Origin: Mesostigma viride
Taxonomy: Eukaryota > Streptophyta > Mesostigmatophyceae > Mesostigmatales > Mesostigmataceae
Length of the DNA: 64,000 nt
Direction of reading: 5' to 3'
NCBI GenBank assembly: GCA_009746045.1
Contig: RPFO01000079.1
Location: 5,800,233-5,864,232 of the forward strand
The position numbers and the translations under genes were made by a program. Numbering within the stretch: position 1 is the stretch's first letter; every line of letters begins with the position of its first letter. Positions 1 to 57,236 of the stretch are shown here, piece after piece. A model generated the notes under the pieces. The model worked only from the letters and a program-made list of their open reading frames with translations, ran no database searches and was not told where the DNA came from.

Positions 1-109
1 ATGCAGCACTCCGCTGACCACATCAGCACCCAGTTACTTTCGCCTCACTTGTCCACAAACACGACACGTGCATCACTCACTTGTCCAGCAGCGCATGCCC
101 CTCACTCAC
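1..109 (-). repeat. Intron 17 start: repeated copies of exon 17 end plus donor
   Basis: Read on the minus strand, the exon end GTGTGGACAAGTGAGTGAGG is followed by two decayed copies, CTGCTGGACAAGTGAGTGAT and GTTTGTGGACAAGTGAGGCG. Each carries the donor GTGAG. The intron continues left of the window. Confidence 0.8.
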
Positions 110-4500: not shown

Positions 4501-7500
4501 GCCAGCCCCTTGAATATCTGGCCCAGCGACCGGTAGTCCATCTGGTCGCTGCAGTTGAACACGTACACCATGACGCCGAGTGCACGGCCCAAGTCCTTGG
4601 TCGTCTCCGTCTTGCCCGTCCCTGCGGGGCCCATGGGCGCCCCCCCCATGATCAGCCGCAGCGCCTGCGTGAGCGTGATGTAGCAGCGATCGGTCAGCGC
4701 GGTCACCACCAGCCGCGGCGCGTTGCCCAGGTACTCGTACTGATAACGGAATTCCGCATCGCAGCACAGGACGTAACAGTCCTTGCCATCCTCGCTAGCC
4801 CCTGCCGGCTGCACCGATGCTGCCCCTGGCTTGGAGCCAGCCCCCCCCGTCAGCGTGGCGGGAGACAGCTGTCCCTCACGCCACTGCGCCCTCAGCTGGC
4901 TCTGCCATGCGAAGCTCTCTGGGTCCTCCACCTTGTCCCGCAGCAGGCGCTCGACCACGTCGCGCGCGTGCACGTCCATGGTGACCAGCGTCATCACTTT
5001 CTGGCGCTGGCCGGCCTCCAGGGACATGCCCTGACAGGGAGCGGGGCCAGGCGCAGGCAGCCAACATGGAGCAAGGCCGGGGGATGAGCCAGGGGGACAC
5101 AGGGCATGCAAACAAGTCCGCAGAACATGAAACATGCAAGGGAGTCAGGAAGGGACATCGAAGTTGAGGTCAGACTCGCGGGTTCAGGGAGCTGATTTGT
5201 AAACTCTTGATCGATCTCCTCGCTAACATGGCTATCTCAGGCGCGACCCCACGTGCGAGTATTGTTGGTGGCTGCATGGGCATTAGCATCTATCCAACCG
5301 GGCCACTAATGTACACGCAGATAGCGGCACGTGAGCACAAATCCTCGATTTAAGGGCCATAAGGTCTGCACCCTTGCCTCAGCACAAATCCTCAATTAAA
5401 GGGCCATAAGGTCTGCACCCTTGCCTCAGCACAAATCCTCAACTAAAGGGCCATAAGCTCTGCACCCTTGCCTCAGGGTGAGATTAGGGTGGCTGCGACC
5501 CAGGCACATCTCCATCGGGCTCATCCACGCCACTGTGCTCGCAACGCATCGTCGCAATCCTTGCGCGTGCGGCATGTCAGCCCCCAATCACATTCCAAGG
5601 ACGAGCATGACAAGCTTGTACACAAACCTTCATGGGCACGATAGCCACAGACCACTCCACCCAGTCCAAGCACAGAGTACGCAGAGCATGAGACGTCGGC
5701 ACCGACGCCCCCTGCGTGTGCGCGCGCGCGGGAACACATGACCCACCTGTAGGAGACCTATACGTAGGGTACCTATGTATGTCCTATATGTATGTCCTAT
5801 ATGTATGTCCTATATGTATGTCCTATATGTATGAGCTGGATGAGGCATGTACGATGACCCCCCTGCATGCATGAGCTGGATGAGGTCATGGCCCACCTGT
5901 ATGAGCCGAATGAGCTCCGCCAGCTGCTCCTCCTGCTTGCGGTGGTAATCCTTGAGCGCGGCGTCCTGCCCATCCAGCAGCCGCTCAAACGCGCCGTCCA
6001 CCTCCAGCGCCCACCACAGCTGGCACACCACCAGCACCACCTGCGCCGTGTGCGCCAGCAGCCACTTGTGCCGCAGCTCCTCGGCGTAGCCGTTGAGCGC
6101 GCTGGCCAGGTAGCCCTTGAGGTTTGCCCGCATGCAGGCGATGAGCCGCGAGAGCCACTGCTCCGCGTTGCCCGAGCACTCGCACGTGCCGTACGCCAGC
6201 GGGACCACCTCGCCCTCGCGGCTCACCAGCGCCACCGCCTCCGCGCCCGCCCCTTTCTTGGCGCCCGCGGGGCCGGTGGACGCCTTCTGGGCCACGTTGC
6301 TGCGGCGGACGGGCCTGGCGTCCGCCACCGCGGCCGCTGCGAACGCGGCCGCTGCCTTATTGGGTGCCACCGAGGACATCCGGGCCTTGCCGCGGGGGGT
6401 GCCCGGCCCACCAGCTGTGCTGCTGACCGAGAGGGTGGAGGAGGACCGCCAGTTGCCGATGGCTTCGGGCGCTTTGCCTGTGGGTTCCACCGTGGTTGGT
6501 GCCGCGTTATCGCCTGCAAACTGCAGTGAATGGATGCCCTCGAAGATCTTTGGGAAGTGCGGGGCCACACTGCGCGGGTCGTGGCCCTTGGAGAGGATGT
6601 CGAGCAGGTCGGCGGGCGCGACAAAGTAGAAGCGGGGGAAGAGTGCGCGCTTGCTCTCCAGGTATTGGTCCAGCGCCTGGTGGGGTGGGCCCAGCAGCGG
6701 GGGGACGTTTCCAGAGGTCAGCTGGAAGAATAGGAACAAAGAAACAGGACATGTGGCGGCGGCGGGTGTGTCCCCTGCGACAAGCGCAGCAAGTGGGTGG
6801 GAGTGTGAGCTCGGCGGTCCGTACGTGGGCACCAACACGAAGCAGATCTGGATCCTTGAGGACCTATAGACAAAGGCGGAATAAGTTCATTTTCTATTGG
6901 TATAGTCATCATTATAAGACTGTACGTAATATAATATAAGTTCACTTTCTATTCGTATAGTCATCATTATAAGACTATACGTAATATAATATAAGTTCAC
7001 TTTCTATACGTATAGTAATCATTATAAGACTATACGTAATATAATATAAGTTCACTTTCTATACGTATAGTCATCATTATAAGACTATACGTAATATAAT
7101 ACAAGTTCACTTTCTATGCGTATAGTTATCATTATAAGACTATACGTAATATAATATAAGTTCACTTTCTACACGTATAGTCATCATTGTAAGACTACAT
7201 GTAATATAATACAAGTTCACTTTCTATGTGTATAGTTATCATTATAAGACTATACGTAATATAATATAAGTTCACTTTCTACTATAAGTAGCTTACTACT
7301 ACAGCAAGTAGTTGTACCTACCTGCTACATCACTTGTGTGCTGGCCTACATCCCTCCCATGCTCTAACATGCATGCCTGAACGCTGGCTTTACCACACGC
7401 CAACTGCATGCGTCTTGCAGTTGGGTCGCCCCTGGTTCAGCCCTCGCCCCCGCGGGCCGGTACGATGCGCCAGCGGTCGCAGCACTGCCCACGGAACGGC

Positions 7501-29296: not shown

Positions 29297-31811
29297 TACT
29301 TGATATATCAACATATACAAGCTTAAGGGGGGGGGGATGCTTCGCATCCCCCCCAAAAGAAGGCGCAAAGCCGACCGTAACTCTAGTAGTCGAGTTTCGA
29401 TCCGTCCGCCGACACATGGCAACTCGATTCAAGTCAACTGAAGCGGCTTATGAAGGGGGCTGAAAAAAGGAAAAAGTCGGGAGACAAATAAGCGACACGC
29501 TGTGTGGGCCTGTAACACCGCAGTCCGTCCGCCCTTCCCAGTTCACCACCCACACGTAGGCTCTTGCCGCGCTCAGTGAGACGCCCGCCGCCAGGCGAGG
29601 TTCGCACCCCCCCTCAGCAAACTGAAGCCGATGGTCTTTACATGTATTGAGGTCGCAATGAAGGCCCCCCCACCTCTCCTGAGCGAGTCGACGCCAGAGT
29701 CTGCGGGACCCCCCACTCACCCACCCGGAGGTTCCACCCCCCTCCCCCCTCCGTCAGCCATGATACGCCCGCCGGGCCCGAGCGCGGCGCCGGCCCAGGA
29801 AAAGTACGAAGATCCGCCACAGGATGCCTCCCCGCTTGAGTGAGACGGCGAGGTCGCAAGGCCCCCGCCCTTCTCAGCGAGACGCCAGAGTCTGCGGGAT
29901 CCCCCGCCCACCCCGCCCACCCACCCACCCGGAGGTCGGTACCCCCCCCCCCCCCCCCGCCCTCCCCTCAGCCCGGCCGGCCGGCATGATGCGCCCCCCC
30001 GCCCCCCGCGAAAAGGCGTGGCGCGAAGGACAGGCGTCGACCACGAGGACCCCTGAAAAAGACCGGAAAAGTATGAAGATCCGCCACAGGATGCCTCCCC
30101 GCCTGAGTGAGACGGCGAGGTCGCAAGGCCCCCGCGCCCCCCCCACACGCCACCCGGAGGTTCCCCGCCTCCCCCCCCCAGGACACTAAGACGGTCCGCC
30201 CCGGCCGGGCAAGGTCGCAGGGCCCCCGCCCTCCTCAGCGAGCAAGACGCCAGAGTCTGCGGGATCCACCCGCCCCACCGCCCCCCCCACCCGGAGTTCC
30301 TCCCCCCCCCCCCCCCCCCGCCCCCCCCCCCCCCCCCCCCCCCCCCTCCCCCCCCCCGCCCCCCTCCCCCCCCCCGCCCCCCCTCCCCCCGCCCCCCCCG
30401 CCCCCCCCACCCGGAGTTCTCCCCCCCCCGCCCGCCCCCCCATCCGGAGTTCCTCCCCCCGCCCCCCCGCGAAAAGGCGAAAACCGTCGCAAGCTCGCTC
30501 GAGTCGCTAACCGACGTCAACAATAATGTCGCGAGACGACTTGAAAGCCATAAAGATGCGAGCGAGTGAACGCGGCGCGAACTGAGGACAGGGGTCGACG
30601 ACGGACGAGGAGCGAAAACTACGGAGATCCGCCACATATATCAAAGAGACAACATATATAGCCTCTTTGATATATAGTTGTCTCTTTGATATATAGCCTT
30701 GCCGAATGCTATTGGAGATACGCGCGTCTTCGGTCCAACCACGCACGGTAGCCTGTACGATCTCCAAATTCCGTCGACTTGCGCCCAACGGAAAAGGCGA
30801 AAAGGACACCCGTCGATCACGAGGACCCCTGAAAATATGTACGGAAAGTTACGGCATACGGGCCACAGGATGCCCGATGGTCTTTACATGCAGGGCTTGA
30901 CGGCTTTCGTCCGATGGTTTTTAATATAGTTGGATACAGTCGGTTGCAAAATCCCAATTAGCAACTTTCGACGACTTAGAAACTTTGGTCAGTTTCAAAC
31001 CTAACGTCTATTGGTCCCTTTTACTGAAGCACCTGCATGCCTGGATTTCCGGGTAAATGGGTATTTTTATTAACCAATAGGAATATCATTAGGTTAAGAG
31101 GTACCACGTATCGACCAGCTGAGGGTAGTAGTGTGATAGGTGAAAGGCACCTCAGTGCATGGATTCAAGACGGAGAATTTTAACAGCAACAAAAAGTTTA
31201 AGTATCTTCGCCCGTCAGTCTTTGGACCGTCACTTCAGTAGACGACGCAGTTTGGATGTACCAACCTACGACGATCGTCGTAGGTTGGTATATGGGCAGC
31301 CGCCACGTGCAGGGGAATAACTTCTGGCGAACCTGTCCGGCCGCTAACGCAGTTTCGTCATTCCGACAGGTAGAAAGTCGAAACGGGTGGAAAGTCGAAC
31401 CCGGCGATAGCAACGGCGAAAAGACGAAAGCCGTCAAGCCGACCGTCACTCTAGTAGGCGACCCAGTTTCGATGAGTCGACAGGTGGCAAGTCGCAAAAG
31501 TTCGACCAACTACGCGCCAGTCAAGCTCGATCGACTCGCTAACGTCAAAATGTCGCGAGACGACTTTAAAGCCATTAAAGATGCCCGCGAGTGAACGCCA
31601 ATAGCGTCTCACTGAACAAACGCCTTTCGTCCTCCGCTCAAGATACGCCGTCTTCGATCCAGCCACGCACGGAAGCCTGTACGATCTCCAAATTCCGACG
31701 ACTTGTGCCCAACGGTAAAAGGCGAAAAGGACACCCGTCGATCACGAGTTATCCACTGAAATGTACGGAAAGTTACGGCGTACGGACCACAGGATGCCCG
31801 ATGGTTTTTAA

Positions 31812-32700
31812 TATAGTTGATACTAAAACTTGTAAAACGCAGCCCTGGCACAATTTTAGCTAACACTCTTTCGAACGGCTTTCGGCTCCAGCCACTCAGC
31901 GGCGCGACTTACAGTCCGCTTGACGAATGAGCTGCGCGAAATTTCGTTGCGACCAATCACGAAAAGGTCAAACCACGGCGCGCCCATTTTTGAGGTTTCT
32001 GAAGCGTTACATCCAGATGAGCCATTTGGCAGAGGTCCGTATGCCCAGATGGCTCCTACTAGAAAACTCTGCGATTTCCTGTGTTCGCGAGCTCCAGATA
32101 TAACCGTCGCAAACTTTTGGGCTGTTGGACCAAACTTTATCCTGAGGAACCAGTTACAAACGCGCAGGAAGCTCACACGTGGATTTTCCTCTGCTCCACC
32201 GCCTGTAAGCGATTTTCCCCTGCTGTCTGCGGGGTTGGCGAGGTCACTCATCCCCGCGCGCATCGCGCTCCCGTGCAGGGGTAGCAGTCAATCTGGAGCT
32301 TGAACTCCGCAAGTAGTTCGCGAGCTCCGTCCACTGCGCGGTTGCGCAGTTTGTCCCTTTGTAGCAATGTACATATTGTTAAACTTCCGCTAAAGCTGCC
32401 TACGTAGTCTTCAGGCGCAAAGGCATACATCGTTTATTTACTCGTGACGACCCGGGTTCGAGCCTTCATGAAAGTCTGTCCAATACATTTTGGATTTTTT
32501 CCCTTCACCCTTTTGCCAAACTGCATGAATCTTGTGGTCGAAACTCTAAAGCTAGCGCGCGCTCCTTGGCGGGACTAGCGCCACTTGGCACTCGACGGAG
32601 GTACGTGGTGACTCACATTTCCCTAGCCGGGGCTCCCTGGCCGGGGACCGGCCACAAAAAGTACAAGCTCTAATGTCGCGGGCGAAGCCCGCAAAACTTG
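31812..32700. other. Central unpaired segment of the inverted repeat
   Basis: About 0.9 kb that is not mirrored. Open frames exist on both strands (minus 31856-32263, plus 31920-32303), but neither resembles a known protein. Confidence 0.4.
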
Positions 32701-34530
32701 TCTAACTATCTAACTATATTAAAAACCATCGGGCATCCTGTGGCCCGTACGCCGTAGTTTTTTACGGAATTCAGTGATCAACTCGTGATCGACGGGTGTC
32801 CTTTTCGCCTTTTCCCGTTGGGCGCAAGTCGACGGAATTTGGAGATCGTTCAGGCTTCCGTGCGTGGTTGGACCGAAGAAGCCCTGTCGTTGGCGGCGGA
32901 CGGAGATGATTTGTTCAGTGGGATACGATTGGCGTTCACACGCTGGAATCTTTAGTGGCTTTAAAGTCGTCTCGCGACATTTTGACGTTGGCGACTCGAT
33001 CGAGCTTGACTGGCGGGTAGTCGGTCAACGACTTGCCACCTGTCGGAACGACGAACTGGGTCGCCTACTAGAGTGACGGTCAGCTTGACGGCTTTCGTAT
33101 TTTCACCGTCCTTCTTCATTTGTCTGTGGTTCCATTGAGTTGAATCTTCGCGTTCGGCTTTAGTTGGTCTCCAATAGCATTCGGCAAGTCCTGTCCTTCG
33201 CGCTGCGTTCACTCGCTCGCATCTTTAATGGCGGGGGGGGGAACTCCGGGTGGGTGGGGGGCGCGGGGCCGGGGAGCGGGGGGATCCCGCATCATTTGGC
33301 GTCTCGCTGAGGCCGGAGGGCCGCCGGGGGCCTTGCGACCTCGCCTGCGGCAGGGCGTCTCACTGTGCGGGCCGGCCGGCCGGGGGGGGGCGGGGGCGGG
33401 GGGGGGAACCTCCGGGTGGCGGGTGGGGGGCCGGGCGCGGGCGCCTTGCGACCTCGCCGTCTCACTGACTCAGGCGGCGAGGCATCCTGTGGCGGATCTT
33501 CGTACTTTTCCGGTCTTTTTCAAGGGTCCTCATGGTCGACGCCTGTCCTTCGCGCCACGCCTTTTCGCGGGGGGGGGGGGGGGGAAGGCGGGGGGGGGGG
33601 GGCGGGGGGGGGGGGAACTCCGGGTGGGTGGGCAGGCGGGGTGGGCGGGGGATCCCGCAGACTCTGGCGTCAGTCTCGCTGACGAGGGCGGGGGCCTTGC
33701 GACCTCGCCTGGGGCGGGGCGTCTCACTGTGCGGGGGGGGGGGGGACCTCCGGGTGGTGGCTGGGTGGGCGCGGGCGCCTTGCAACCTCGCCGTCTCACT
33801 CAGGCGGGGAGGCACCCTGTGGCGGATCTTCGTACTTTTCCGGTCTTTTTCAGGGGTCCTCATGGTCGACGCCTGTCCTTCGCGCCACGCCTTTTCGCGG
33901 GGGGCGGGGGGCGCATCATGGCCGGCTGGGGGGGGGGGGGGGGGGGAACCTCCGGGTGGGTGGGCGGGCGCGGGGGCCGGGGGATCCCGCAGACTCTGGC
34001 GTCTCGCTGAGGAGGGCGGGGAGCCTTGCGCGCGACCTCCCTGTCTCACTCAGGCGGTGAGGCATCCTGTGGCGGATCTTCTTACTTTTCCGGCCGGCGG
34101 GGGGGCGCATCATGGCTGAGGGGGGGGGGGGGGGAACCTCCGGGGGGGGGGATGGGCATGGGGGACGGGGGATCGTGCACACTTTGGCGTCTCACTGAGG
34201 AGGGCGGGGGCCTCATTGCGACCTCAATACATGTAAAGACCATCGGCTCGCTGAGGGGGAGGGGGGTTGCGACCTCGCCTCGGGCGGGGCGTCTCACTGA
34301 GGCGGCCAATCATGGCCTCCGGGTGGACTGGGAAGGGCGGACGGACTGCGGTGTTTCAGGCCCACACAGCGTGTCGTTATTTGTCTCCCGACTTTTTCCT
34401 TTTTTCAGCCCCCTTCGTAAGCTTCAGTTGACTTGAACCGTTCATAAGCTTCGGTTGACTTGAATCGAGTTGCCATCTGTCGGCGGACGGATCGAATCTC
34501 GGCTACTAGAGTTACGGTCGGCTTTGCGCC

Positions 34531-34667
<137 letters not shown>

Positions 34668-34730
34668 GGTCGGCTTTGCGCCTTCTTTTGGGGGGGGTGC
34701 GAAGCATCCCCCCCCCCTTAAGGGGACGGG

Positions 34731-38037: not shown

Positions 38038-41000
38038 CTAATAGCCCTGCTGCACCGCAAAATCAGCCCGCGTACGGCGGAGCATGATGTCAGCCATGGC
38101 CCGAGTCAGCGCCACCGACAAGCGCTGACGCCAATATGACGTCCAGGTCCGCGCCGACCATGGGGCCCGCTGGCCCTCCAGGTCCAGCCGGTCCTCCCGG
38201 AGCCGGCAACACTCCTTGAAGAAGGCGGAGGTCAGGGGCCCCATGGCCCCAAACTCCTCCAGGACAAAGGGCACCACACGATGGTGCCCGACGTCGCCGT
38301 AGGCCAGGAGCTTGGCCCGCTCCGCCCGGTCCGCCGTGTAACCTGCCGTGAGGGAGGCCCCAGCCACGTGGCTAAGAGCCAAGGGCCGCGCCACCGAAAC
38401 GTCAATAAGCAGATGCCGGCCACCCCCCTCAAAGTCCAGCACCACGATGTCAGGCCGGTGGTTGGGGGAATAGAAGGCAGCGCCATCCGCATCCTCGGAC
38501 CGGATGTTCGCGTGGGGGAAACCGACCGAATCATGGCGAGCACCACCGTCAGGAGGACAGTGTGCAAATACAAATACCAATTCTGATTCTGTTGGCCCCC
38601 CATGCAGGCAAGGTAGTGAGTCCCCGTGGGATCCAGCGGCTGCCCACAGCTACCACAAGGCCGCCCGGCCGGAACAAGAGGCTGCGGGGCAAATAGCTGG
38701 TGCCGGAGCGCCACCGAGTAGTGGCTGGGAGCCAAGGCGAATGGGGGGGCCATGGGAAGAGCACGAAGGTACGCCGAGCCCACACTCCGCAAGGAAAGCG
38801 AGAACAGCCACGCACGTCCCTGGGCGTTGAGGTCCGCGAAAAGAGCAATCCAATCAGCCGTGTGCAGAATACCCGCGTAGGTTTTCTGGTGTTTATCGAT
38901 GACGCGAGCAGGGAATGCGGCGGGAGATTGAACGGAGGCGACCGAGGGAGTGCCGCGAGGGAGGTGGCGCTGTACCGCCTGAGCGGCACGGACGGGAGAA
39001 CAGGCCTGCTGGATCTCAGCATAGGCCTCCTGGATGGCGGTGACGAAGGGCAAAGGGCTGCTGGGGTCCAGGAGGTCAGGCGCTGCTGTTGCCAAAAGGG
39101 GCAGGAGCCGGCAGCTTTCCGCCCACGACTGAGCGACGGAGCCCAAAAATGCTGCTGGGGCCAGCCGGGCGGCACGAGTCAGACCGCAGCCACCCATCCG
39201 TGCAGGCAGGGAGGCAATGCGAATAGCATGTGGCGGGAGGTCGGGGCCCGGGACCAGCTGCGCCAAGGCCGACTGGATGCGTTCGTCGTGGCCCTCGGCG
39301 GCCAGCCGGACCTGAGCCGGAAGAGCGCCCCGGAGCCAGTGAACGACGCGAGGGTGAGCGCAAAACCACAGAAGCAGACCCTTGGTCTGCGAATCATGAA
39401 GGCGCGCAATCAAGGGCAGTACCTCAGTGCGTGCCTCGAGGGCGGCCCGCAGAGCATCGATGACAAACGCGGGGTCGCCAACCGGAACGCCGAGGACATC
39501 CAACCCATGGAGGCGCTCGTCCCGGCCCAAGAGCTGGGGCGGAAAGCCGGAGCAATCACCTTGGGGCGAGTACACCGCGCACTTGGCCAGGGTCAACTGG
39601 AGGTTGATGTCGGCCACCGCGGTCTGCAGTGCCAGCAGAGCCGCGGTGGTGTCCGGCACAGGGCCCAGAAGGTAGATATCATCCAAGTAGGCCTGAATAG
39701 CGACCGCCGGGTGGGCAGCATGGACCGCTTGGAGGCAACCCTGGAGGGGGGCGGCAAAGTACAGGGGTCCCAGGGGGTCCCCTTGCTGGGTGCCCGACCG
39801 CGACAGCAGGCCGCCGCGAGTGCCGTCCTCCATGATGTGAACCAGTTGGCCGGGCTGGCCGTAGCACACGGCTGTCCAAGCGTACAAGTCCTCGAAGGAC
39901 TCCATGACGGCCGCAAACATGCTGGCGCGGGACAGACTGTTGAACGCGTTGTGGCAGTCGACCTTGACGACAGCGTGGGTGGGGTGGGCCTCGAGGTAGG
40001 CCTGCACCGAATGGATGAGGATATCCGCCCCGCCTGGAGTCGTCACCCCCAGCTGGGCCGCCACCGAGGTCTCACCCGCTGCGAGGGGCGGGCAGAAAAA
40101 GGCACGGAGCTCGGGCGCCTTTTGGCGGCAGATCACTTTGCCCACGAGCTTGCGGAGCACCTCACCGCAGGCGATCGGGCGCACCTTGCCCTCGGGGGGG
40201 GCAAGACACCCTTGAGCAGAGCGAGGAGGCGAGCGCCCGCTAACCACTCGCGCGCAGCGGGAGGAACGCGACCAGCCGCCAGGTCAATGAGGGTGTCAAA
40301 GAGAATGTCCTCGCCCCCATGCCCCACCAGGACCTCCAAGTGCTCGTAGCGCCAGCCCGACGGCCCGGTAGAGGAAGCCCGCGGGACCGCACGCATCACC
40401 TCCAGGAAGCAGTCGCGGTCCAGCCGGAGGGGGGCCGGCAGGGGGTCCGGCACGGGCAGCTGGAATCCGGGCTCCGCAGGGTGAAGAGCCTCCAAGGCCG
40501 CCAGGGTAGCCGCATTGGCGGGGGCCAGCTTGGCCATTTCCAAGCGGGTCATGGCCCGGCTGAGCTGCCCCTCGCGGACGAGGCGGATGACGTCGGCGGC
40601 CACCCGCTCGAAGTTGACCTCCCCCGACAGCCGGGCCGTGCGCGGGGGCGGCACGCCAAACAGCCCCTCCCAGTCCCCCTGCAGAAAGCGTCGGCAACGG
40701 GCAATAACCGCACCCTGGAGGCCGCGCACACCACGCCCGAGAGGGGTGAGGAGCAGGCGGGGGGTCACCATGTGCAGTTTAAAGCCCAGCGGGTCGTCCG
40801 GAGCGGCGTGCATGCGCCGGAGAGAAACGATTGCACATTGCGCGAAAAGGCTACGCGCGCGGTGGGGGAGGTCGGTCAGGGTAGACGTCGGGTTGATGGC
40901 GCATGCATCCCAGGGAACCGTGTCAAGCCAACGCCAACTGGCCGAGTAGTCGGGCGGCGGGGGCTGGGAGCCGGTGGGAGCCGAGGCGGGAGGGGGGAGG

Positions 41001-45584: not shown

Positions 45585-46191
45585 AGCCACGAGGTAGCCA
45601 TGGCTGACGGCGGAGCTCATAACTTTAACGTTTGGGCACCAAATTCGGCCGTGAATATCACAACCGCTTCGTCTTTCTAAGACGCACACACTGATATAAT
45701 TTTCCGAATCGCTATTACGCAATGTATGACGAGCAAGTTTACGCTCCTCTACGCAACGCAGCCTGGCGGCTGCGCTAAGCCCTGAAAATACGTCTGCAGC
45801 TCCGCGGCTGCAGCTTCGCCCTTAGCTAGGCCCGGAAGGCAGCGGTGATCTGTCCACTAGTCGCGCACTGGTGGTTGCCCAGCAAGCCCCCCACCAAGCT
45901 TGCCTCGCCATCTGCATGATTCGCGCGCGAGCCTAAACGCATGCAGCCGCCCTGAGGAATCGCCCCCTGCCGACCGAACCGAGCTGGAAGGAAGTCGACT
46001 TTGACGTCACCTCAGCCACATGGTGGACACCGGCTCTGTCAAGCCGACCCTAGCCGCCCTTTCATGCACGCCCTGTTCTACGGGTCGCGCACCTCGCTTC
46101 TTGCCCTGCATATCAGTGTGCCAGCACCTTTTCGTCCTCGGTCGCCTCATTCCACCTGGCCGCGTGGTCGGTGCTTCACATGCGCAGCCTC
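45585..46191 (+). pseudogene. LINE ORF1-type element, copy 2, left part
   Basis: Matches copy 1 from GAGGTAGCCATGGCTGACGG through the FDV and ALFYGSRTSLLALH region. It is broken by stops and frame changes and then interrupted at 46191 by the 7.6-kb DNA transposon. The right part resumes at 53774. Confidence 0.75.
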
Positions 46192-46216
46192 CCTAGCCTA
46201 ATATGGATTTGTACTA
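46192..46216 (+). repeat. Left terminal inverted repeat
   Basis: 25 bp, starting CCTAGCCTAATATGG; perfect partner at 53749-53773. Confidence 0.88.
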
Positions 46217-46299
46217 CAGCACTAGTACAAATTGGTTTTTTTTCAACATTGTTATTTAATGCCTCTCATAGGTCCAAAGCATGGAGGTCAGTGTCCCAA

Positions 46300-46690
46300 C
46301 ATGTGGTGACACCGTGACACCGTGACACCGTGACACCGTGACACCATGACATCACAACACTAGCATTTCACAGTTTGTATGATGTCACATGGTAATGTGA
46401 CGTTCAGCACTGGTATCATGATGTCCACATGTAAGCTAAAGCGCTGCCCAACATGACGTGACACCGTGACATCATGACACCGTGACATCGTGACACCGTG
46501 ACACCGTGACATCACAACACTAGCTAGCATTTCACAGTTTGTATGATGTCACAAGGTAATGTGATGTACAGCACTGATATCATGATGTCCACATGTAAGC
46601 TGAAGCGCTGCCCAACATGACGTGACACCGCACGACATCATGACACCGTGACATCGTGACACCGTGACATCGTGACACCGTGACATTGAA
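46300..46690. repeat. Left subterminal arrays of the 8-bp motif GTGACACC
   Basis: Three clusters (about 46306-46352, 46457-46513, 46620-46686) are separated by two copies of a spacer of about 120 bp with ACACTAGCATTTCACAGTTT. In the inward direction the motif reads GTGACACC, the same as from the right end. Confidence 0.9.
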
Positions 46691-47405
46691 TCTTGCTATG
46701 TATGGAGATATCGTTTTTCACTTCTCTAACTTGAGTAATGCAAGCACAAGGCAACATAATTAGTTTTGAACCCCTGAAAAGAAAGAACCTTACATGCCCT
46801 ACGTCTCAGAACACTGTTGCATCATGCATGACACCAGGACACGGTGACAAAGTGGCATGGCACAAGATACAACTGCATTTGACACCAAATATTGATAAGG
46901 CTAAACAACTAGCCTTCATTCCTAAATAGCCATGCATGCATCACATTCTTTACTGAAATATGACATGGATCTACTAAGTCAACCATGCAGTCACATGTGA
47001 GTCTCAAACCATTAAAACAGGTATGCGCATATGTGTATTCCATCTGGGTTTGATGCCCAGGCGCATACCATTAATTAGACAACTAGTCCAAAACAATGCA
47101 TGTCTCACTTAATAGTCATCATAATACACATCTTGTTCCAGATTGTTATTTGGTATTTCACCAGACGCCTCCGAGGCACTGCGTCCGATGATGCCTGGTG
47201 CAAAACAATAGCATTTATAGCACGCAAAACAAGAAAGCAAAACAAGAAAGTTACGTATTTTCTCCGACACCAAACGTCATCGTACCCTCCATGCAGCAGC
47301 CTCGTGCAAGCTGAATTGCATAGAAGCTGCAACTACGATTCTATTCATGAAAGCATACAGGCAGGCAGTCGACATCCCAAGCAGGATAACCCCCCTAAAC
47401 AACAA

Positions 47406-47508
47406 CCCCTCGCGGGGGGCGCGTGAAAACGGCAAAGGCAAAGCGGAGCCCGCCGCCTTTGGGCGGGCGGAGCGGAGCCTTCAGTTTTCACGCGCCCCCC
47501 GCGAGGGG
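47406..47508. repeat. Perfect 25-bp inverted repeat forming a 103-bp hairpin
   Basis: Arms at 47406-47430 and 47484-47508 (starting CCCCTCGCGGGGGGCGCG). The 53-bp loop is itself GC-rich with repeated AGCGGAGCC. It looks like a small MITE or a structured element inside the larger transposon. Confidence 0.8.
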
Positions 47509-47561
47509 AAATTTTTTTTGGAAAATGGGGCAAACCATGGGGGTTTTCTTACGGAATTTAC

Positions 47562-47819
47562 CTGCGATCTTCCTTGCGATGCAGTTTTGCCTGGTCGCTC
47601 GCGCTCCCCGTCCGAACCGCCATCAGAGGCTGCATTAATTCTATTAAGCTCATTCAGCGCGCCCCGGACGTACACGGTTGATTTCTTATCTTTTGGTTGT
47701 TCATCTGCCTTCCCGTCTACAGCAGCGCCATCATCGGCTGTCTCGGCATGCTCTGCACGTTCATCCGAGCCATACTGTTCATGGATTTCTGCCGGCGGCT
47801 GCTGTTCGCCGCTAGCCAT
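47562..47819 (-). CDS. Possible first exon of an unknown acidic protein in the transposon
   Basis: ATG at 47819 (MASGEQQPPAEIHEQYGSDE), then a Glu/Asp/Lys-rich, probably disordered stretch, and a good donor CAG|GTAAAT at 47562-47556. Without the splice, the frame runs into the hairpin. No downstream exon was identified, so both function and reality are uncertain. Confidence 0.3.
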
Positions 47820-47939
47820 CGCAGCTATATCCTATCAAACTCCGCTGTCCTAAAAACACGAACAAACACGAGGGCACGCAAATTATCTACGTCGTGCGTC
47901 CAGAAGTACTTGTCGTGTATATTATTTTGCGTTCAAGTT

Positions 47940-48120
47940 CTCCGGACCTCGTGACATCGGGTGCATGCCTTCGTTCCCGAGGTCGATGTCCCGAGGTCCC
48001 GAGAACTTGCGGCCCAAATTTAGGTGGTGTCCCGAGGTCCCGACACCTGATTGGCCCGTTGAGATTCGCTCAGAATCAAGAGCAATCAATGCGGACCACG
48101 AGTAGCTCGGACCTCGTGAC
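47940..48120. promoter_or_regulatory. Cluster of five CGAGGTC motifs between divergent reading frames
   Basis: CGAGGTC at 47978, 47992 and 48033, and its complement GACCTCG at 47945 and 48110, within 172 bp. The cluster lies between a minus-strand candidate exon starting at 47819 and a plus-strand frame starting at 48341. Regulatory role is inference from position and repetition. Confidence 0.4.
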
Positions 48121-48340
48121 ACCACCTCGGGCCAGGCGGGTGCACTTGCACGCCGATATATCGACAACGATGGAAGATTGCATCGGTAAAATGTATTCTA
48201 AAGACTTTGACCGAACGACTTTCTTCATTACCGCTGCAACTTTTTTTTCCTGAGCTACCGCATATTTCCGACCAATTTCAAGGCTGCGTCAGGCTTGGCA
48301 GACCCATACTTCGTATATATATGCGTTTGCCCCGAACGTC

Positions 48341-48964
48341 ATGTTTAATGCAGGCTTTGTGGACTCTAAAGACGCCCACGATGTTGGGGCTTTTATCAGC
48401 CTCTGGACATGTAGAAACTGCGGTCAGCAGGTGAATGCCGGAACGAGTTCTGTGGCGGGGTGTGCGAAACAGACATCAAGCGCACGGCAGACATGGATAC
48501 CTCCGAGCGGTATGTTCCCTTATTCAAATCTACGGGCCAATTCACTCCTTGTTGAATCCCTGACCTTGTCACGGATGAATATGTTACCAGTTCCCCATCT
48601 CCGGAGTTTCTCTTTTGGTCATCTTCTTATCTTACGGGAGGTGCGTCATGAATCGTATAGCGAGCTACGGTTTCATGGCGAGCCTTTTCTTCACATCAGC
48701 GACGTACAGGTTACCTTAGAGGCTAGGGATGTCAAGGAACTCATCACACGGATATTAGGGAGGGTGCATGACGGATTGCGGGCAAGATATTACGGGCTGG
48801 CTGGCAGCCTTGCAGCGCTATTGCCTCCGATCGATGGCAATGATTTGCAGGCAGGGCTATGGATCACAAAGCTGTTGCTTTGCTCTAGTTGTACATGCTG
48901 CAATTTATTGGCATTGTGCTCACGGCAAGTAATGTTGCATGACATGGTTGACCACGAAGATTGA
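48341..48964 (+). CDS. Hypothetical protein inside the transposon
   Basis: 207 codons, MFNAGFVDSKDAHDVGAFIS, with a CRNCGQQ motif near residue 25 and a middle section (LEARDVKELITRILGRVHDG) that looks like folded protein. I do not recognise the family. It may be an exon of the same transcription unit as the DUF7869-like gene or a decayed passenger. Confidence 0.35.
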   Translation: MFNAGFVDSKDAHDVGAFISLWTCRNCGQQVNAGTSSVAGCAKQTSSARQTWIPPSGMFPYSNLRANSLLVESLTLSRMNMLPVPHLRSFSFGHLLILREVRHESYSELRFHGEPFLHISDVQVTLEARDVKELITRILGRVHDGLRARYYGLAGSLAALLPPIDGNDLQAGLWITKLLLCSSCTCCNLLALCSRQVMLHDMVDHED

Positions 48965-50639
48965 TGGAAAACCTTGAAGCAATTGGTGGCTTTCTTGGAT
49001 GCTCGATGGCTTCACATGCTTGTGAGTCCATAAAACCCACTGTATACGTGCCCACCATCTCTAAGCTGAAAGCATCTGCCTTCAACAAGCATCTTAAGAC
49101 ATGCATGCACATGAGAACTGTCATGGTTTGTGGAGAGGGTGGCATATTGCGTGAGAGTGGAGAGAGGACAGTGGCCGGGCTAGGCCAGCTACCTGTGCTG
49201 CCACACGGCCGGGCGGCAAACACTGATGCACAAGCTGCCTTACACGCCAGCACCCAAGCTGCCTTCACACCCCTGAATGATGAGCAGAGGGCATCCTGGA
49301 CGGCCGCATCCATGCAGTTCATGCAGTTCAGGCTGTGCGTGCTGGCCAAGGGCACGGGTAAATGAGCCAATGGCGGGCTATTATTACGCACGTTGCAACC
49401 AGCGCCAATGAAGCAACCCAAGCCTGCCCTCCTGACAGGTATGTGTGTTTTGTTTTCTCATGTGGTGTGCACAACCAGCAATCCTTTATTTCCCTATGAT
49501 GCATGTTTGCGGAATTCTGGCAACCTGGCACATGGCCAAACTCCTCAATGTCAGGGGTGGGAGGGGTTGTTTGTCAAGTGGATAGACACACGCACATGCT
49601 CAACACCTCTTGCTCCAATGCCACTGCCACTCACCCAGAAACTCAGGCACAACCACGCACGATCGCTAAGCTGCTAGCCAGAATCGCAGTCCTCACCAAA
49701 GTGAGGGATGGGGCACCAGCTAGTTTGACAGTCTGGCTGAGGACGTGCAGGAGTTGAATGACATATCTGAAGCAAGTAGTCACGGATGGCTTGGAGAAAC
49801 ATGGTGAAGCATGCATGGGCATGCATCTCATGTTGACAAGGGCCAGAGCAAGAGCATGAGCACGATGCATGTGCCTATGTAGAGGCCATTGGGCTTGCAC
49901 TATCTGTTGAAGACAGCTGCGGTATTGTGGCCAAGCGGCTCACCGGGGATGTGCAGTGGCTTCTTCATGCTAGGTATGATGGCGGCCAAGTGCAGTCCTT
50001 TGGTGGCATATTTCAAGCCGGCAACCTCGAGGTAGCAACTGAGCAGTGTATGAGCTGTCTGGCTATGCACCACAGCGCTGGCTGAGGAGATCTAGTCCAA
50101 CTTGGAAGCTGCGTTGCCAGCAACGTGGGCCCCTATAACAGAGACAGGGACATGGGGGCATCCATGGTGATGCAGAGGACCATGTGTGGCAACCTTGGTC
50201 AGGCGGGCCGGTTGCCAAGGGATGTGCTGCTACCAAATCAAGGCGCACAAAACACATCGCAACCATGCCGACGGCCGAGATGCCTGGCATCAGATTAGAT
50301 TATTACATTGCCAAGCTGAGTTTGCGGCTACCGTGCGTGCTGTGGGTTTGAACTGATCATGCTAGCCAACGTGACAGTTGGCAGTTCTTATGTCTAACAA
50401 GCCCCTACTTGAAAATTGCCTTAGCATGGCCGTATGCACATATATACAACCATGTCTAGCCACTGTTCATGTTCATATATCTTTGTCTGTGTGTCACAAA
50501 AGTTGTGTTATATTATCTGTGCAAGGTCTGAACAGTTAGCAACACAGTTGGTGGGAGTTGGCCATACCGTTACTAAAGAACTTTGCATCCAAGGTTGAGT
50601 GATTAGCTGGAAACTCGCAGGTGTTGCATGGACCAGTGA
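48965..50639. other. Transposon interior without a recognised gene
   Basis: Only short, interrupted frames. Composition is intermediate and there are no tandem arrays. Confidence 0.4.
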
Positions 50640-51170
50640 ACCCAATGACACTTGATGGACCTGAAGTTTTGTGCAATGTCTGAAATGACATGATGATTAA
50701 CATGGGCGCTTGTTTTCAGCCTCACCTGAGCACATCTTGCATGGGAACTGCAAGAAATGTGGCGGAAATGCAAAAAACGCACATTTTTTCTCACATTTGC
50801 TAGCAAGCTGTCAATGAATGAAGTACAACAGACCTGGATTTTTGTGCAATGTCTACTATGATGATATTTAATATGCTTGCAAGTTTCCAGCCCCAACTGA
50901 GCACATCTTGTATGAAAACTGTCATGAAATGTGTGAAAAAAACGCGAAAAACGTGCATTTTTGCTAGCATTTGGTGGCATTTTGTTACCAAATACAGTAC
51001 GATGGACCTGATTTTTTGTGCCATGTCTACATTTATGATGTGTAACGTGATTGCAAATTTCCAGCCTCGACTGAACACATCTTCCATGGAAACTGCTATG
51101 AGATGTGGTGAAACGGTGCGTTTTTGCTAGCATTTGGTGGCAGTTTGTCACCAAATGAGGTCAGATGACC
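50640..51170. repeat. Three diverged tandem copies of a 180-bp unit
   Basis: Each copy has a GATGGACCTG...TTTTGTGC(A/C)ATGTCTA segment, an AGCC(C/T)...TGA(G/A)CACATCTT segment and TTTGCTAGCATTTGGTGGCA. Identity between copies is moderate. They lie just upstream of the DUF7869-like gene. Confidence 0.65.
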
Positions 51171-51457
51171 ATGGGACATGGTGCACAGATGGTAGACATG
51201 AGCATAAGCCTACATGCAAACAGCCAGGTCAGGAGCTCTTTATTTGCATATCAAATGGTATTTGTTTGTATTAAAATCTGGAAAGTTGCTAAAAATAGAC
51301 ATGCCAAAAATAGACCAACCGATGTCGAAAAATTCTGGAAAGTCAAATTCCTTTTACTGGTGTCATGGACATGCTGCCTACCAATATCTAGCATGTTTGG
51401 ACTCAATTTGCTCCTTGTAGGGCTTATAAGGGCATTTTTTGGCACTTTCATACCGTT

Positions 51458-52585
51458 GTGGGCTTGGGTAGCACTGCTGGACGGCGTGTTCGAGGATCCC
51501 GTTCAATATCTGCCAGGATTGGGGAGGCCAAAGCGCTTTGTGAGCTATGGATTCGGCGTTGGTTACGCCCAGCAGTTGAGAAAGATCCTCGAGATGGCCG
51601 CAGCATTCTTGAGCAACCCTGCAAGAAGACTTTGTACTCGGAGTATGTTAGGGAGAGACAAGATTACAATGCACCTGTGGTTAGTATTTCGCTTTTCAGG
51701 ACAATCTTCAAAGCAGTGGCGACAATCATGGAAGTCCATGTTGAGCGTTTTCGCACAAAGGTTATGGGTGAATGTTCCCGCTGTCGAAAGCTGAAGGATG
51801 CCATTTTGTTTTACCGGACCACTGACCGGGCCAGGTGGGAGGCCAGTAAGGAGAAGTTAGCTGATCACACTGATTTCTTTAATGGGGAGCGGATGGCTTA
51901 TCTGCAGCGAAGGTTCGAAGGCGCCAAGCATTTTTTTGTTTCCATAGTCATGGATGGTTTGGCAAAGATGAAGACAGCGGTTCCAACGAGGGGGAGCGCC
52001 TCGAAAGAGTGGCTTAGCAGCCGCCAGCTTCATATACCGTACCAGTTAGTCTGCTCTATTTTGCACGGGGTGAGGACGTATTTTTGGGTCATCATGCCAT
52101 GGGTAGCTAATTCTGAGGTTTCTGGTAATTCAGGGCGCGTCACGGCAACAGTGCTCACGCATCAGTTGTTGGAAGTGGTTGTTGAGCGTCCATGGGAGAA
52201 GTCCACTGATCCTGAGATTCGTGAGTTTGGCCTTGCCCCTAACCTCGTCCTTCAAGTGGATGGGGGTGGGGACAACATGAACAACGAGTTGTTGGGGTTC
52301 CTAGCTGTTCTCATTGTCCGCCGCCTCTTTGCTCGCATCAGGGTGTGCCGGCTTCCACCGGGACACACACACAATGATGCTGACCAAAGGTTTGGTTGGT
52401 TCATCCGGTGGTACAACGGCATCAAGAACCGTGTGTCAGATCTTCCACCGGTGCTGATGCTGACGTTTCAAGACGTGCTGCAGGGGCTGAAGCGTGCCTT
52501 TGCACAGCAGTGTGCAAGGGTGCATAACAATCAGTGCATGGCTGGTTATCGCGAGGTCATGTTTTGCCTGGCATGGTCCCTCTAA
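51458..52585 (+). CDS. DUF7869-like protein, candidate transposase
   Basis: About 375 codons. N-terminal: KKTLYSEYVRERQDYNAPVV and FRTIFK, a helical DNA-binding-like segment. A zinc-knuckle-like CSRCRKLKDAIL follows. The core reads LVLQVDGGGDNMNNELLGFL and then LPPGHTHNDADQRFGWFIRW. The paired D...N and GHTH..D motifs are those of the DUF7869 family, common in algal, plant and animal genomes, often in repeated loci. An RNase H-like nuclease fold is plausible but is inference. Its position between matching terminal inverted repeats supports a transposase role. The start is uncertain: the first 60 codons match nothing I know, and an upstream exon joined at about 51520 (TGCCAG|GATT) is possible. 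Confidence 0.65.
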   Translation: MGLGSTAGRRVRGSRSISARIGEAKALCELWIRRWLRPAVEKDPRDGRSILEQPCKKTLYSEYVRERQDYNAPVVSISLFRTIFKAVATIMEVHVERFRTKVMGECSRCRKLKDAILFYRTTDRARWEASKEKLADHTDFFNGERMAYLQRRFEGAKHFFVSIVMDGLAKMKTAVPTRGSASKEWLSSRQLHIPYQLVCSILHGVRTYFWVIMPWVANSEVSGNSGRVTATVLTHQLLEVVVERPWEKSTDPEIREFGLAPNLVLQVDGGGDNMNNELLGFLAVLIVRRLFARIRVCRLPPGHTHNDADQRFGWFIRWYNGIKNRVSDLPPVLMLTFQDVLQGLKRAFAQQCARVHNNQCMAGYREVMFCLAWSL

Positions 52586-52904
52586 TGATGACTCTATGTC
52601 ATAAATGTCCCTCACTATAACGACTCAATGAGAATGTGTTATAATTTTTCATTTTAAGTTAGACATGTATGATGTCAATGAGGCACCCATGAATATACTT
52701 AGTTGTCTCTTTTATACAGTCACATGATGTGTTCCCACGTACCATGCTGAAATAAATTATGTGCATGCTTAAATATTGTCAAGGCAAGCAGCAATTAATA
52801 AACGCTTAGCTGCAATTTGTGAATGCTTACATGTGTATAGTTAGACAACTACAATGTCAATACAATTCTGCAAAGATGTGTCTTTACATGCAATATGAGG
52901 CGCC

Positions 52905-53660
52905 ATGGTGGTGTCACGGTGTCACGGTGTCACGGTGTCACGGTGTCACGGTGTCACGGTGTCACGGTGTCACGGTGTCACGTGCGGAGTCACGGTGTCC
53001 AGGTCATCTAGGGCAACCTTGTCATTATCAAATAGACATATAATCCCCATTACTTAATCACTAAATGTGCAAAGATGTGTGTTTACATGCAATATGAGGC
53101 GCCATGGTGGTGTCACGGTGTCACGGTGTCACGGTGTCACGGTGTCACGGTGTCACGGTGTCACGGTGTCACGTTGTCCAGGTCATCTAGGGCAACCTTG
53201 TCATCATCAAATAGACATATAATCCCCATTACTTAATCACTAAATGTGCAAAGATGTGTGTTTACATGCAATATGAGGCGCCATGGTGGTGTCACGGTGT
53301 CACGGTGTCACGGTGTCACGGTGTCACGGAGTCACGGTGTCCAGGTCATCTAGGGCAACCTTGTCATTATCAAATAGACATATAATCCCCATTACTTAAT
53401 CACTAAATGTGCAAAGATGTGTGTTTACATGCAATATGAGGCGCCATGGTGGTGTCACCGAGTCACGGTGTCACGGTGTCACGGTGTCACGGTGTCACGT
53501 TGTCCAGGTCATCTAGGGCAACCTTGTCATCATCAAATAGACATATAATCCCCATTACTTAATCACTAAATGTGCAAAGATGTGTGTTTACATGCAATAT
53601 GAGGCGCCATGGTGGTGTCACGGTGTCACGGTGTCACGGTGTCACGGTGTCACAGGTCCT
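52905..53660. repeat. Right subterminal arrays of GGTGTCAC, five clusters
   Basis: Clusters start near 52911, 53110, 53289, 53452 and 53616. They are separated by four copies of a spacer of about 120 bp with GGTCATCTAGGGCAACCTTG and GATGTGTGTTTACATGCAAT. They are the reverse complement of the left arrays, so orientation relative to the nearest end is conserved. Confidence 0.92.
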
Positions 53661-53748
53661 ATGAACTTCCCCTTCCTCAAAGACTTTAGTTGAGATGTTA
53701 GATGCATAGAAATGCAACTTTGAAAAATGAAGTACAAATGGCGTGCTC

Positions 53749-53773
53749 TAGTACAAATCCATATTAGGCTAGG
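53749..53773 (-). repeat. Right terminal inverted repeat
   Basis: 25 bp, reverse complement of the left end. Followed by the GCCTC target duplication. Confidence 0.88.
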
Positions 53774-54950
53774 GCCTCCCTTATCTGCGCAGCCTCCCTC
53801 GCCCCCGCCTTCAGCTCATCGATCGCCCTCTGCTCCCTCCTCGGGCGCTCTGCCGCCGAGATCTAGGCCCCCACTTCCTCTTCCACGTCCGAAATATCAG
53901 CTCCATCCTCAAGGAGGCCTTCGAGCAGCACGTGACATGCACGGTCCCTCGCCGGCCGCAGATGTGGCGGCCATGGGCGGCACGCTCGCCGGCTGCCAAG
54001 CTTCCCCTACTAGCTCCTCTACTCCACCACCAACGCCACCTCCAAGCTCCTCGCCTCCACCGACCGCCACCCGGGCCACCGACGCCCTCACTGCCCAGCT
54101 CCTCGCCATCGACAAGCCGCCTCCAGGACAATGCCATCGCCATCGAATGCCTGCAAAACACCGCAGGCATCACTGCCCATGCAGGCGGTGAAGGACATCA
54201 CGGCGCCCGGCCAGCCGCCCCTGCTGGCCCTTCCGGCAATGCACCTCCCACTCAGACCTGGGCAGCCATGCTGATGAACCACACCACCACGTATATACCA
54301 CCACCTCTGCCATCATCGCCGCCCAGCTCAAGCAGCAGACGCTCGACCTCCGCGAGGAGGCCGAGCTCGACATGCAAGCGCAGGCTGCGCAGCCTTAACG
54401 TCGATCATCGTCAAGCACTTCGACCAGTTGCAGGACAAGACCTCCGAGGCCCTTGCCACGGCGTTTGAGAACAAAATCCTTGTCCCCATGGCTCTCAAGT
54501 ACTGGTAAGGGCAAGCCGCGGGGGGTGACCCGCCTTCCCCGCTCGTGGGGTAAGGCTGGCCCCTCCCCATTTCTCCTCACCTTCAGTTTGACACCATGGC
54601 GGATAAGATGGAGTTCCGGCCTCGATCAAGCGTCGCGAGCGGCTTGGGGGGACCTCCTACACGCTGGACGACGACTTGACATTGGCGCCGCAACAACGGC
54701 GACGGGAGCTACAGTGGCCGACCTACCTCCAGCGCAGACGGCAGGGCAGAAGCCGGTCTACTGGAGGGCCCGCCGGGGGCGGACATCTACGTCGCCCACA
54801 AGCCCTGGCAGGCGACCCCTGCCGCCCCAGCCACCCCTGCAGCCAACCCATGCAGCCTAGTAGGGGATTATTATACAGCAGTCGTGTAGACTAGAAAAGC
54901 TTAGTGATCAACGTGGCCATGTATGCCTACGTGATGGGCCCACACCCGCC
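53774..54950 (+). pseudogene. LINE ORF1-type element, copy 2, right part
   Basis: Continues copy 1 equivalents: ILKEAFEQHVT region, LQDNAIAIECLQNTAGITA, the RQTLDLREEAELD helix, then a frame-broken C-terminal domain with the QQQRRREL motif and KPVYWR. Several frame changes make it non-functional. Ends near 54950. Confidence 0.75.
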
Positions 54951-55530: not shown

Positions 55531-56011
55531 TATCAAAGAGACAACCAGCGCAGGCCAGAAATCGGGAGAATCTGGACCATGGTAGCTCGAGCCTGCCGTT
55601 ATCTTGTCCGCGTTTTCGAGTCGTTCAGGATCATGAATGGAGATGGAAATTTGTAGCCTTGTGCATTGAAATTATGGCTGGCTTACGTGTAGAGCGACTA
55701 GATGCCCTAGACGGTGGGGCCGGAAACAGCTTGCTTGATCAAGGCGTCTGTTTCGAGCCTAACATAAGCTGGCCGGGAGTGTCTAGTGGTGAGCACCATT
55801 GCTGCGATCGCTCTCCCACCATTTACGAGGAAATACCCGCAAATGGAAAACCACTGAAAAGGTCTAGCGAGTCAGTCATTACGTTAGCCATGCCATGATT
55901 CCAAACGTCCAAGAACTGCACACGGTGCAAAGGCAAAAATCCGGAGGACGGCACTTTCAAATGTGCGGCGGGAACCAAAAGCCCGCGTATGCCAGAAAGC
56001 ATCGTGTTGCT
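55531..56011 (+). repeat. Dispersed repeat rep-A, copy B, left part
   Basis: Starts ATATCAAAGAGACAACCAGC and matches copy A in reverse orientation through CCAGAAAGCATCGTGTTGCT, where the LINE is inserted. It resumes at 57333. Confidence 0.85.
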
Positions 56012-57236
56012 CCTCTGGGACGCTCTATGGGCTGTACTTGCTCGCGCTCGCGTCCCCACTCCCCTGATTACCGTCATCCGCACGCTGTATGAGGGGTCGA
56101 CCACTTCGGTGCGCACTCAACACGGCATTACCCCGCCATGCCCACTGCAGACCGGCGTCTGGCAGGGTTGCGTCCTGTCCCCGTACCTGTTTATTATTGT
56201 AGTGGATTATGTCATGCGCCAGGCACGTGCTCGCTTTGCTAGCATTGCAGGCCGTGCCCCTGGCCTAGCGATCACGAACGAGCTTGGGGAAGGGGGGCCG
56301 ACTAACAAGCAGAACTTACTAGCTGACCTCATTTATGCCGACGACATCACGCTCATCGAGAAGCCGGAGTCTGCCCAACTTTGGCTGGACTGCCTGGCGC
56401 TCGAGGCTCGGGCGGTTGGTCTAGAAATCAGCCCCAAAACGGAGGCCCTGGCCCTCGGCATGGCAGGGCCCCCACCCACACTCCGCCTCTTAGACGATGC
56501 CGAGGTCAACTACCCTCCTTCAGGCCGCTTCAAGCTGCTCGGCAGTTGGCTTCCCGACTGCGAGGACGACATGACGACACGGATCGGCATGGCGTGGGCG
56601 CACCTCCATGACCACCGCCGCTGGTGGAGCAACCCCGCCCTACCCCGGATCGTCAAGCGTGACCTCTTCAAGGTCGTCATTCTGACGATCCTGACCTACG
56701 GCGCCGAGACGTGGACACTGATGCAGGAGCTGGAGCAACGACTCGACGGCGCCGTCACCAAGATGCTGCGCAAGGCCCTTAACATCCCCTTTGGTTTGCA
56801 CATTAGTAATGAGGATTTGTACGCTGATTTGCCCTATGTTTCCCACATTATTAGGCACAGGCGCCTGGGCCTAGCCGGGCACCTGGCCCGCCCAGATCAG
56901 GTAGATACATCAGATAGACTAGCTGGCACCAAGCCCGCCCAGCCTGGGCGATATGTCCTCACCTGGCGTGCCCCCGGCCGCGCGCGGCAGGGCCGCCACC
57001 CGTGGACTTTTCGTGATAGACTCGGCATGGACATGTGCTACGCTAGACGTGACGGGCTCACCCCCGGGCAGCCTCCTGGTTTGTCTGTAATATGGAGGCA
57101 GATGGTGCGCAAGGATAGATGGCAAGTAGTGATGAAGGAGACCACCCCCAAGCCTGTGGGGGCTCCGCGTGTGACCAAGTATGGCATTCATAGCGATTCG
57201 GGCCGCGGTGCCCACACCCCTGTAACTAGGACCTAG
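56012..57236 (+). CDS. Non-LTR reverse transcriptase, C-terminal part
   Basis: An open frame of about 408 codons, entered from the flanking repeat. It begins within the palm domain (GVWQGCVLSPYLFIIVVDYV, then ADLIYADDITLIEK with the YADD catalytic motif), followed by thumb and C-terminal regions (LTYGAETWTLMQELEQRLDG, TKMLRKALNIP, RRLGLAGHLARPDQ). The fingers and any endonuclease are missing, so it is a dead-on-arrival copy. Sequence style resembles the RTE/L1-like elements of algae and animals, not the R2-like element at 38-42 kb. The frame has no internal stop, suggesting recent insertion. Confidence 0.9.

Follow-up and report, generated by a model that had tools for sequence, protein, structure and literature searches.

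Subterminal repeat arrays and 3-bp target duplications are typical of CACTA/EnSpm elements, which are defined by CACTA termini and an EnSpm transposase domain. According to PMC10045372, Repbase comprises 23 superfamilies, 21 of them with DDD/E (Asp-Asp-Asp/Glu) transposases, and 3-bp duplications are produced by Zator and ISAzo13 alike. Zator is paired with ISAzo13-like elements in PMC5718144 and is assigned to the IS630-Tc1-mariner group in PMC7386202. Here, we analyze a 64,000-nucleotide stretch of the Mesostigma viride genome (assembly GCA_009746045.1, contig RPFO01000079.1, positions 5,800,233 to 5,864,232; hereafter the window), which holds an element with a gene of the DUF7869 family (PF25273), a Pfam name that gives no function. 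We consider it highly probable that this element, which moved recently and carries a truncated gene, belongs to a lineage of DNA transposons that have the DUF7869 protein as their transposase. Among open-licence papers, we found no mention of DUF7869 and no description of this combination of ends, arrays and DUF7869, Repbase itself not having been compared.

Comparing copies, 20 of which were fetched in addition to the window copy, we set the element to 46191-53774 (7584 bp). An earlier note on this DNA had described 25-bp inverted ends and a 5-bp GCCTC target duplication. The inverted ends are indeed perfect at 46192-46216 and 53749-53773, and they have no other match in the window at up to three mismatches (chance expectation 0); their true length, however, is 26 bp. 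At 16 sites with both ends in hand, the window included, the C before and the G after the 25-bp ends are constant. These two bases therefore belong to the element, which gives 26-bp ends running CCCTAG...CTAGGG and a duplication of 3 bp, CCT in the window. We rejected the 5-bp duplication as a misreading, in which a base of the element and a flanking base that matches by chance had been added at either end.

Searching the host assembly (440 Mb, 2243 contigs) with the 26-mer at up to two mismatches, we obtained 40 forward and 37 reverse matches, and none with the reversed control. Sixty-eight of the 77 matches paired into 34 elements, nine stayed unpaired, and the flanks of all 34 were read. 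Identical 3-bp flanks bordered 30 of the 34 pairs (15/16, 9/11 and 6/7 in three batches), a match by chance being expected at about 1 in 64 per site. Counting independent sites, the figure is 28 of 32 (L102 and L107 are duplicates, as are L103 and C777). No common target sequence was seen by eye across the flanks of these 34 elements. The earlier note had proposed a search for further copies with the same ends and 5-bp duplications; such copies exist, with duplications of 3 bp and not 5. The window family has both the terminal inverted repeats and the fixed-length target duplications by which cut-and-paste class II elements are recognized.

Only a few bases in 7.5 kb separate window-type copies (L094, for example, shows one mismatch and three gaps in 7.1 kb), so their movement is recent. 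Another copy, L093, sits in a host repeat that looks reverse-transcriptase-like by eye. When we joined its flanks with one GTA, all 40 places scored of 1059 candidates matched across the junction at 87-90%, and two of these places, whose sequence was read, run continuously with a single GTA. As empty sites, they belong to other copies of this repeat and are related to the L093 site; they do not represent the L093 locus in a different strain.

The earlier note had also reported inward-reading arrays of an 8-bp motif at both ends, and a window search with the 14-mer GTGACACCGTGACA at up to two mismatches confirmed them. The 45 matches (0.46 expected by chance) comprise 16 at the left end, all on the plus strand, and 29 at the right end, all on the minus strand, with none elsewhere in the window. 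Mirror-image 8-bp arrays are present in all 16 complete window-family copies fetched. In these copies, GTGACA[CT]C occurs as 15-17 plus-strand units in the left 700 bases and as 17-33 minus-strand units in the right 1000 bases; the exceptions are two opposite-strand units in the left part and two plus-strand units in mid-element. Comparison of the ends of two further DUF7869 families, D and A (see below), did not reveal the GTGACACC array; the end regions compared have a modest inverted repeat in common in family D and nothing of note in family A. The arrays are candidate transposase binding sites, and PMC4763223 provides, with Kat1, a precedent for the importance of subterminal repeats.

The DUF7869 motifs recognized in the earlier note were upheld by Pfam, as PF25273 matches the open reading frame 51458-52585 with an E value of 4.6e-12 and 46.3 bits (cut-off 26). 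The gene had been taken for a complete coding sequence, and in this the note was mistaken. Comparison with L096, a copy of 7130 bp with the same ends, a GCT duplication and a longer gene, shows the window gene to be a truncated middle piece. The longer gene encodes an N-terminal part with CxCxxxC and, besides the DUF7869 core, has additional 3′ coding sequence that includes an acidic tail; its reading frame is broken in L096 and in the near-twin L108. Relative to L096, the window form is without element stretches 2021-2777 and 3824-6055 and has 3.26 kb of other DNA. This block recurs, with a 98-99% match, at 11 of the 40 places scored of 459 candidates that lie away from the 26-bp ends, as judged by position relative to the genome 26-mer matches.

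Performing a protein search of the genome (116 scored of 568 candidates), we counted 26 near-identical window-type genes with a frame of 397 or 398 amino acids between stops, two broken long-type genes and three genes whose 606-amino-acid frame is unbroken; another two copies, matching at 98% or higher, are either incomplete or split. The three long-frame copies have the same ends and matching duplications (GAA in C224, CAA in C1413 and TCT in C1579). In L103, most of the gene is deleted. The window copy holds only the catalytic middle of the gene, next to 3.26 kb of another repeat, and we rejected the idea that it is autonomous; it belongs to a common form that is gene-truncated and presumably non-autonomous. 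Since its gene is truncated while three long-frame copies exist, the window copy presumably moved in trans.

Scanning the genome with PF25273, we found that all 150 matches scored of 275 candidates exceed the cut-off with no stop inside the match, and 59 of them have one identical score and span. None of 14 control genomes has a match. All five proteins of alignment A1 match the domain. The closest relative family is that of L113 and L114, the L114 protein being 49% identical to the window protein over the alignment. We found no DUF7869 relatives in viral_contigs, genome_contigs, phages or plasmids; the pattern GHTHxDxDQ gave 82 stretches in genome_contigs, all examined, without a convincing relative (best tblastn E value 0.42).

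Two further families carry DUF7869 genes. Family D, with GAGGGGATTC ends (longer form GAGGGGATTCATARGTGTTTGCTCAATTTC), gave 142 forward and 137 reverse matches at up to three mismatches (control 0) and 3-bp duplications in 10 of 11 pairs read, six of these 10 elements having been picked for holding a DUF7869 gene with a 753-amino-acid frame. Family A, with GGGTGGTTTT ends (longer form GGGTGGTTTTACCGGATTAGGATACATTT), gave 260/269 matches at the same tolerance (control 0), and a single element, of 11,210 bp, was read at both ends; it has TCT on both flanks and contains a DUF7869 frame of 1729 amino acids. The inverted ends of the three families, 26 to 30 bp long, are unrelated by eye, and the elements measured span about 6.8 to 13 kb between satellite-rich ends. 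As side observations, an integrase-like retroelement frame (by eye) directly adjoins a family A insertion (L162, 4530-5534), and the C-terminus of one DUF7869 protein of family D (L111, 4773-5453) is weakly Tudor-like (PF21743, E value 0.00048, under the cut-off). If this match holds, it would suggest chromatin binding.

The earlier note had named two ways in which its proposal could fail. DUF7869 genes might never be flanked by inverted repeats, and three families show that they are; the ends might be accompanied by a different transposase, and none was seen in the copies read, not every frame of which was identified. With three families of unrelated ends, inverted repeats and 3-bp duplications, there is good support for DUF7869 acting as a DNA transposon's transposase, and the DUF7869 protein is very probably the enzyme that moves these elements. 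We also weighed whether the gene is a passenger, with another transposase of the genome acting in trans. The most abundant form found carries only a gene fragment and L103 has lost most of the gene, which fits a passenger and makes movement in trans likely for many copies. This explanation is nonetheless improbable, as DUF7869 and the 3-bp duplication are common to three families with unrelated ends, the window family retains three long-frame copies, and the other listed frames of the 11.2-kb element either overlap the DUF7869 frame's repeats or appear to be of low complexity.

We also looked at the residues that may carry out catalysis in the DUF7869 protein. Seven aligned DUF7869 proteins have D...D...GHTHxDxD in common, and D166, D268, D307 and D309 are invariant in both protein alignments. 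D166 follows a strand-like hydrophobic stretch, while D268 lies within Q(V/L/M/A)DGG(G/S)(D/E)N. We compared this family with a profile of eight ISAzo13 proteins from viral_contigs and plasmids. The alignment used seven of 23 DUF7869 rows (five earlier and 18 later); it includes three of the 18 later rows, the others being near-identical to the GGGTGGTTTT family (13 rows) or to family D (two rows). From the ISAzo13 alignment, L117 (partial) and L188 were left out. The comparison gave a P value of 0.0027 (score 30.3), the best of 13. The twelve controls (IS30, IS5, IS3, IS2, IS1, YagA and six non-transposase proteins, one of them partial) ranged from 0.073 to 0.67, the comparison not being fully even, as they were single sequences against the eight-protein profile. 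None of 299 column shuffles reached the ISAzo13 score (maximum 24.55), and the reversed profile scored 19.4. The 54 aligned columns take in DGG(G/S).N and the P(P/x)G block after it and do not extend as far as the third acid. The catalytic block of DUF7869 bears a weak but specific resemblance to that of bacterial ISAzo13 transposases.

Several results count against the proposed transposase or temper it. A single-sequence AlphaFold model was unusable (mean predicted local distance difference test score 37.7) and did not show an RNase H fold, and a profile search of the PDB returned three matches with E values of 0.72-0.73, which we take as chance. The NCBIfam ISAzo13 model matched two of five proteins far below its cut-off (E values 0.043 for the window frame and 0.039), at 12.9 bits against the NF033519 threshold of 200. 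Our first, thin profiles gave a P value of 0.099, and single ISAzo13 sequences gave 0.011 and 0.19. All DUF7869 proteins compared come from this genome. Four of the 34 window-family pairs have no matching flanks (L097, L108, C887 and C480), C887 and C480 also having mutated ends. In family D, the nested element of L112 has mismatching TCA/CAA flanks, its partner end being uncertain. Mobility itself was read from sequence, and no excision or transposition event was seen. As to L112, we also note that one family D element is apparently inserted there in another, in reverse orientation, and that the outer flanks mismatch.

In the mechanism we propose, a full-length DUF7869 protein, which combines a Cys cluster near the N-terminus with a D-D-D core and an acidic tail at the C-terminus, would bind the ends, in the window family perhaps through the subterminal arrays. 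It would then excise the element and link it to the two target strands at points 3 bp apart. The window copy, whose gene has lost both its N-terminal and its C-terminal portion, would have been moved in trans. The predicted activity is that of a DDD transposase making 3-bp staggered joins, with a putative cut-and-paste rather than replicative mode. DUF7869, a domain of unknown function, would thereby gain a testable function, and proteins annotated only by this name would become recognizable as parts of mobile elements. With copies that are nearly identical and long frames that are unbroken, the lineage is a candidate for experimental work.

Features of the window element and its DUF7869 gene (window coordinates)
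Feature	Position	Strand	Basis or remark
Left target site duplication, CCT	46188..46190	.	30/34 genome end-pairs with identical 3-bp flanks
Left 26-bp terminal inverted repeat, CCCTAGCCTAATATGGATTTGTACTA	46191..46216	+	Genome matches 40 forward/37 reverse, control 0
Left subterminal array, 8-bp unit GTGACACC, nested in 164-bp repeat	46306..46685	+	
3.26-kb block not in long form L096	48198..51460 (element 2008-5270)	+	Also in repeats away from ends
Truncated DUF7869 gene, 375-amino-acid open reading frame	51458..52585	+	51461-52506 common to L096 long gene
Asp166 codon, proposed first catalytic acid	51953..51955	+	Invariant; putative role
Asp268 codon (DGGGDN block), proposed second catalytic acid	52259..52261	+	Invariant; in register with ISAzo13 DGGGSN
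Asp307 codon, alternative third catalytic acid	52376..52378	+	Invariant
Asp309 codon in GHTHxDxDQ, proposed third catalytic acid	52382..52384	+	Invariant; putative role
Right subterminal arrays, GTGACACC unit reading inward, in 163-bp repeat	52910..53653	-	
Right 26-bp terminal inverted repeat	53749..53774	-	Copy comparison
Right target site duplication, CCT	53775..53777	.	Copy comparison

Within the element, a hairpin (CCCCTCGCGGGGGGCGCGTG with an inverted copy) lies at 47406-47508; a similar piece is seen by eye in L111, and the hairpin may itself be a small, independently mobile palindrome. Elsewhere in the window, two minus-strand frames at 109-5135 match the dynein heavy chain motor domains AAA_7 and AAA_6 (Pfam), and by eye this gene extends beyond the tested frames with long minisatellites between its exons. 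Reverse-transcriptase genes (RVT_1) lie at 38235-40247 (minus strand) and 55989-57233 (plus strand), the first near-identical by eye to one nested in copies L092 and L109. A large, G-rich inverted repeat with arms of roughly 2 kb occupies 29322-34703.

Set beside the known systems, the DUF7869 elements recall CACTA/EnSpm in their 3-bp duplications and in the arrays observed at both ends. That they belong to CACTA/EnSpm is nevertheless very improbable, as no terminus starts with CACTA (the three families start with CCCTAG, GAGGGG and GGGTGG) and Pfam found no EnSpm transposase domain in the DUF7869 proteins scanned.

The likeness to ISAzo13 and Zator was judged from ISAzo13 proteins and published descriptions of Zator. 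The DUF7869 families make the same 3-bp duplication, their DGG[GS].N and PPG-like blocks stand in register with those of ISAzo13, and their proposed acids are spaced by 101 and 40 residues, compared with 92 and 42 in the ISAzo13 protein L119. The published pairing of Zator with ISAzo13-like elements, together with the top rank of ISAzo13 among our profile comparisons, could mean that the DUF7869 elements are divergent Zator members, a eukaryotic cousin of ISAzo13 and no separate superfamily. We hold this to be possible, though doubtful. The aligned similarity is confined to the neighborhood of the second acid; GHTHxDxDQ supplies a D as third acid, as opposed to E in the SKWNKIEH of ISAzo13; and the DUF7869 proteins are longer, with a Cys cluster and an acidic tail that inspection by eye did not reveal in the aligned ISAzo13 proteins. 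The size and satellite-rich ends of the DUF7869 elements likewise set them apart from ISAzo13 and Zator. Most likely, they form an undescribed cut-and-paste lineage of superfamily level, possibly a deep relative of Zator. With their 3-bp duplications, a link to ISAzo13 only at the core, very large transposases, and abundance and recent activity in this genome, we lean slightly toward a separate eukaryotic DDD superfamily, which would add to the eukaryotic DDD/E transposase tree a lineage with a possible bacterial root.

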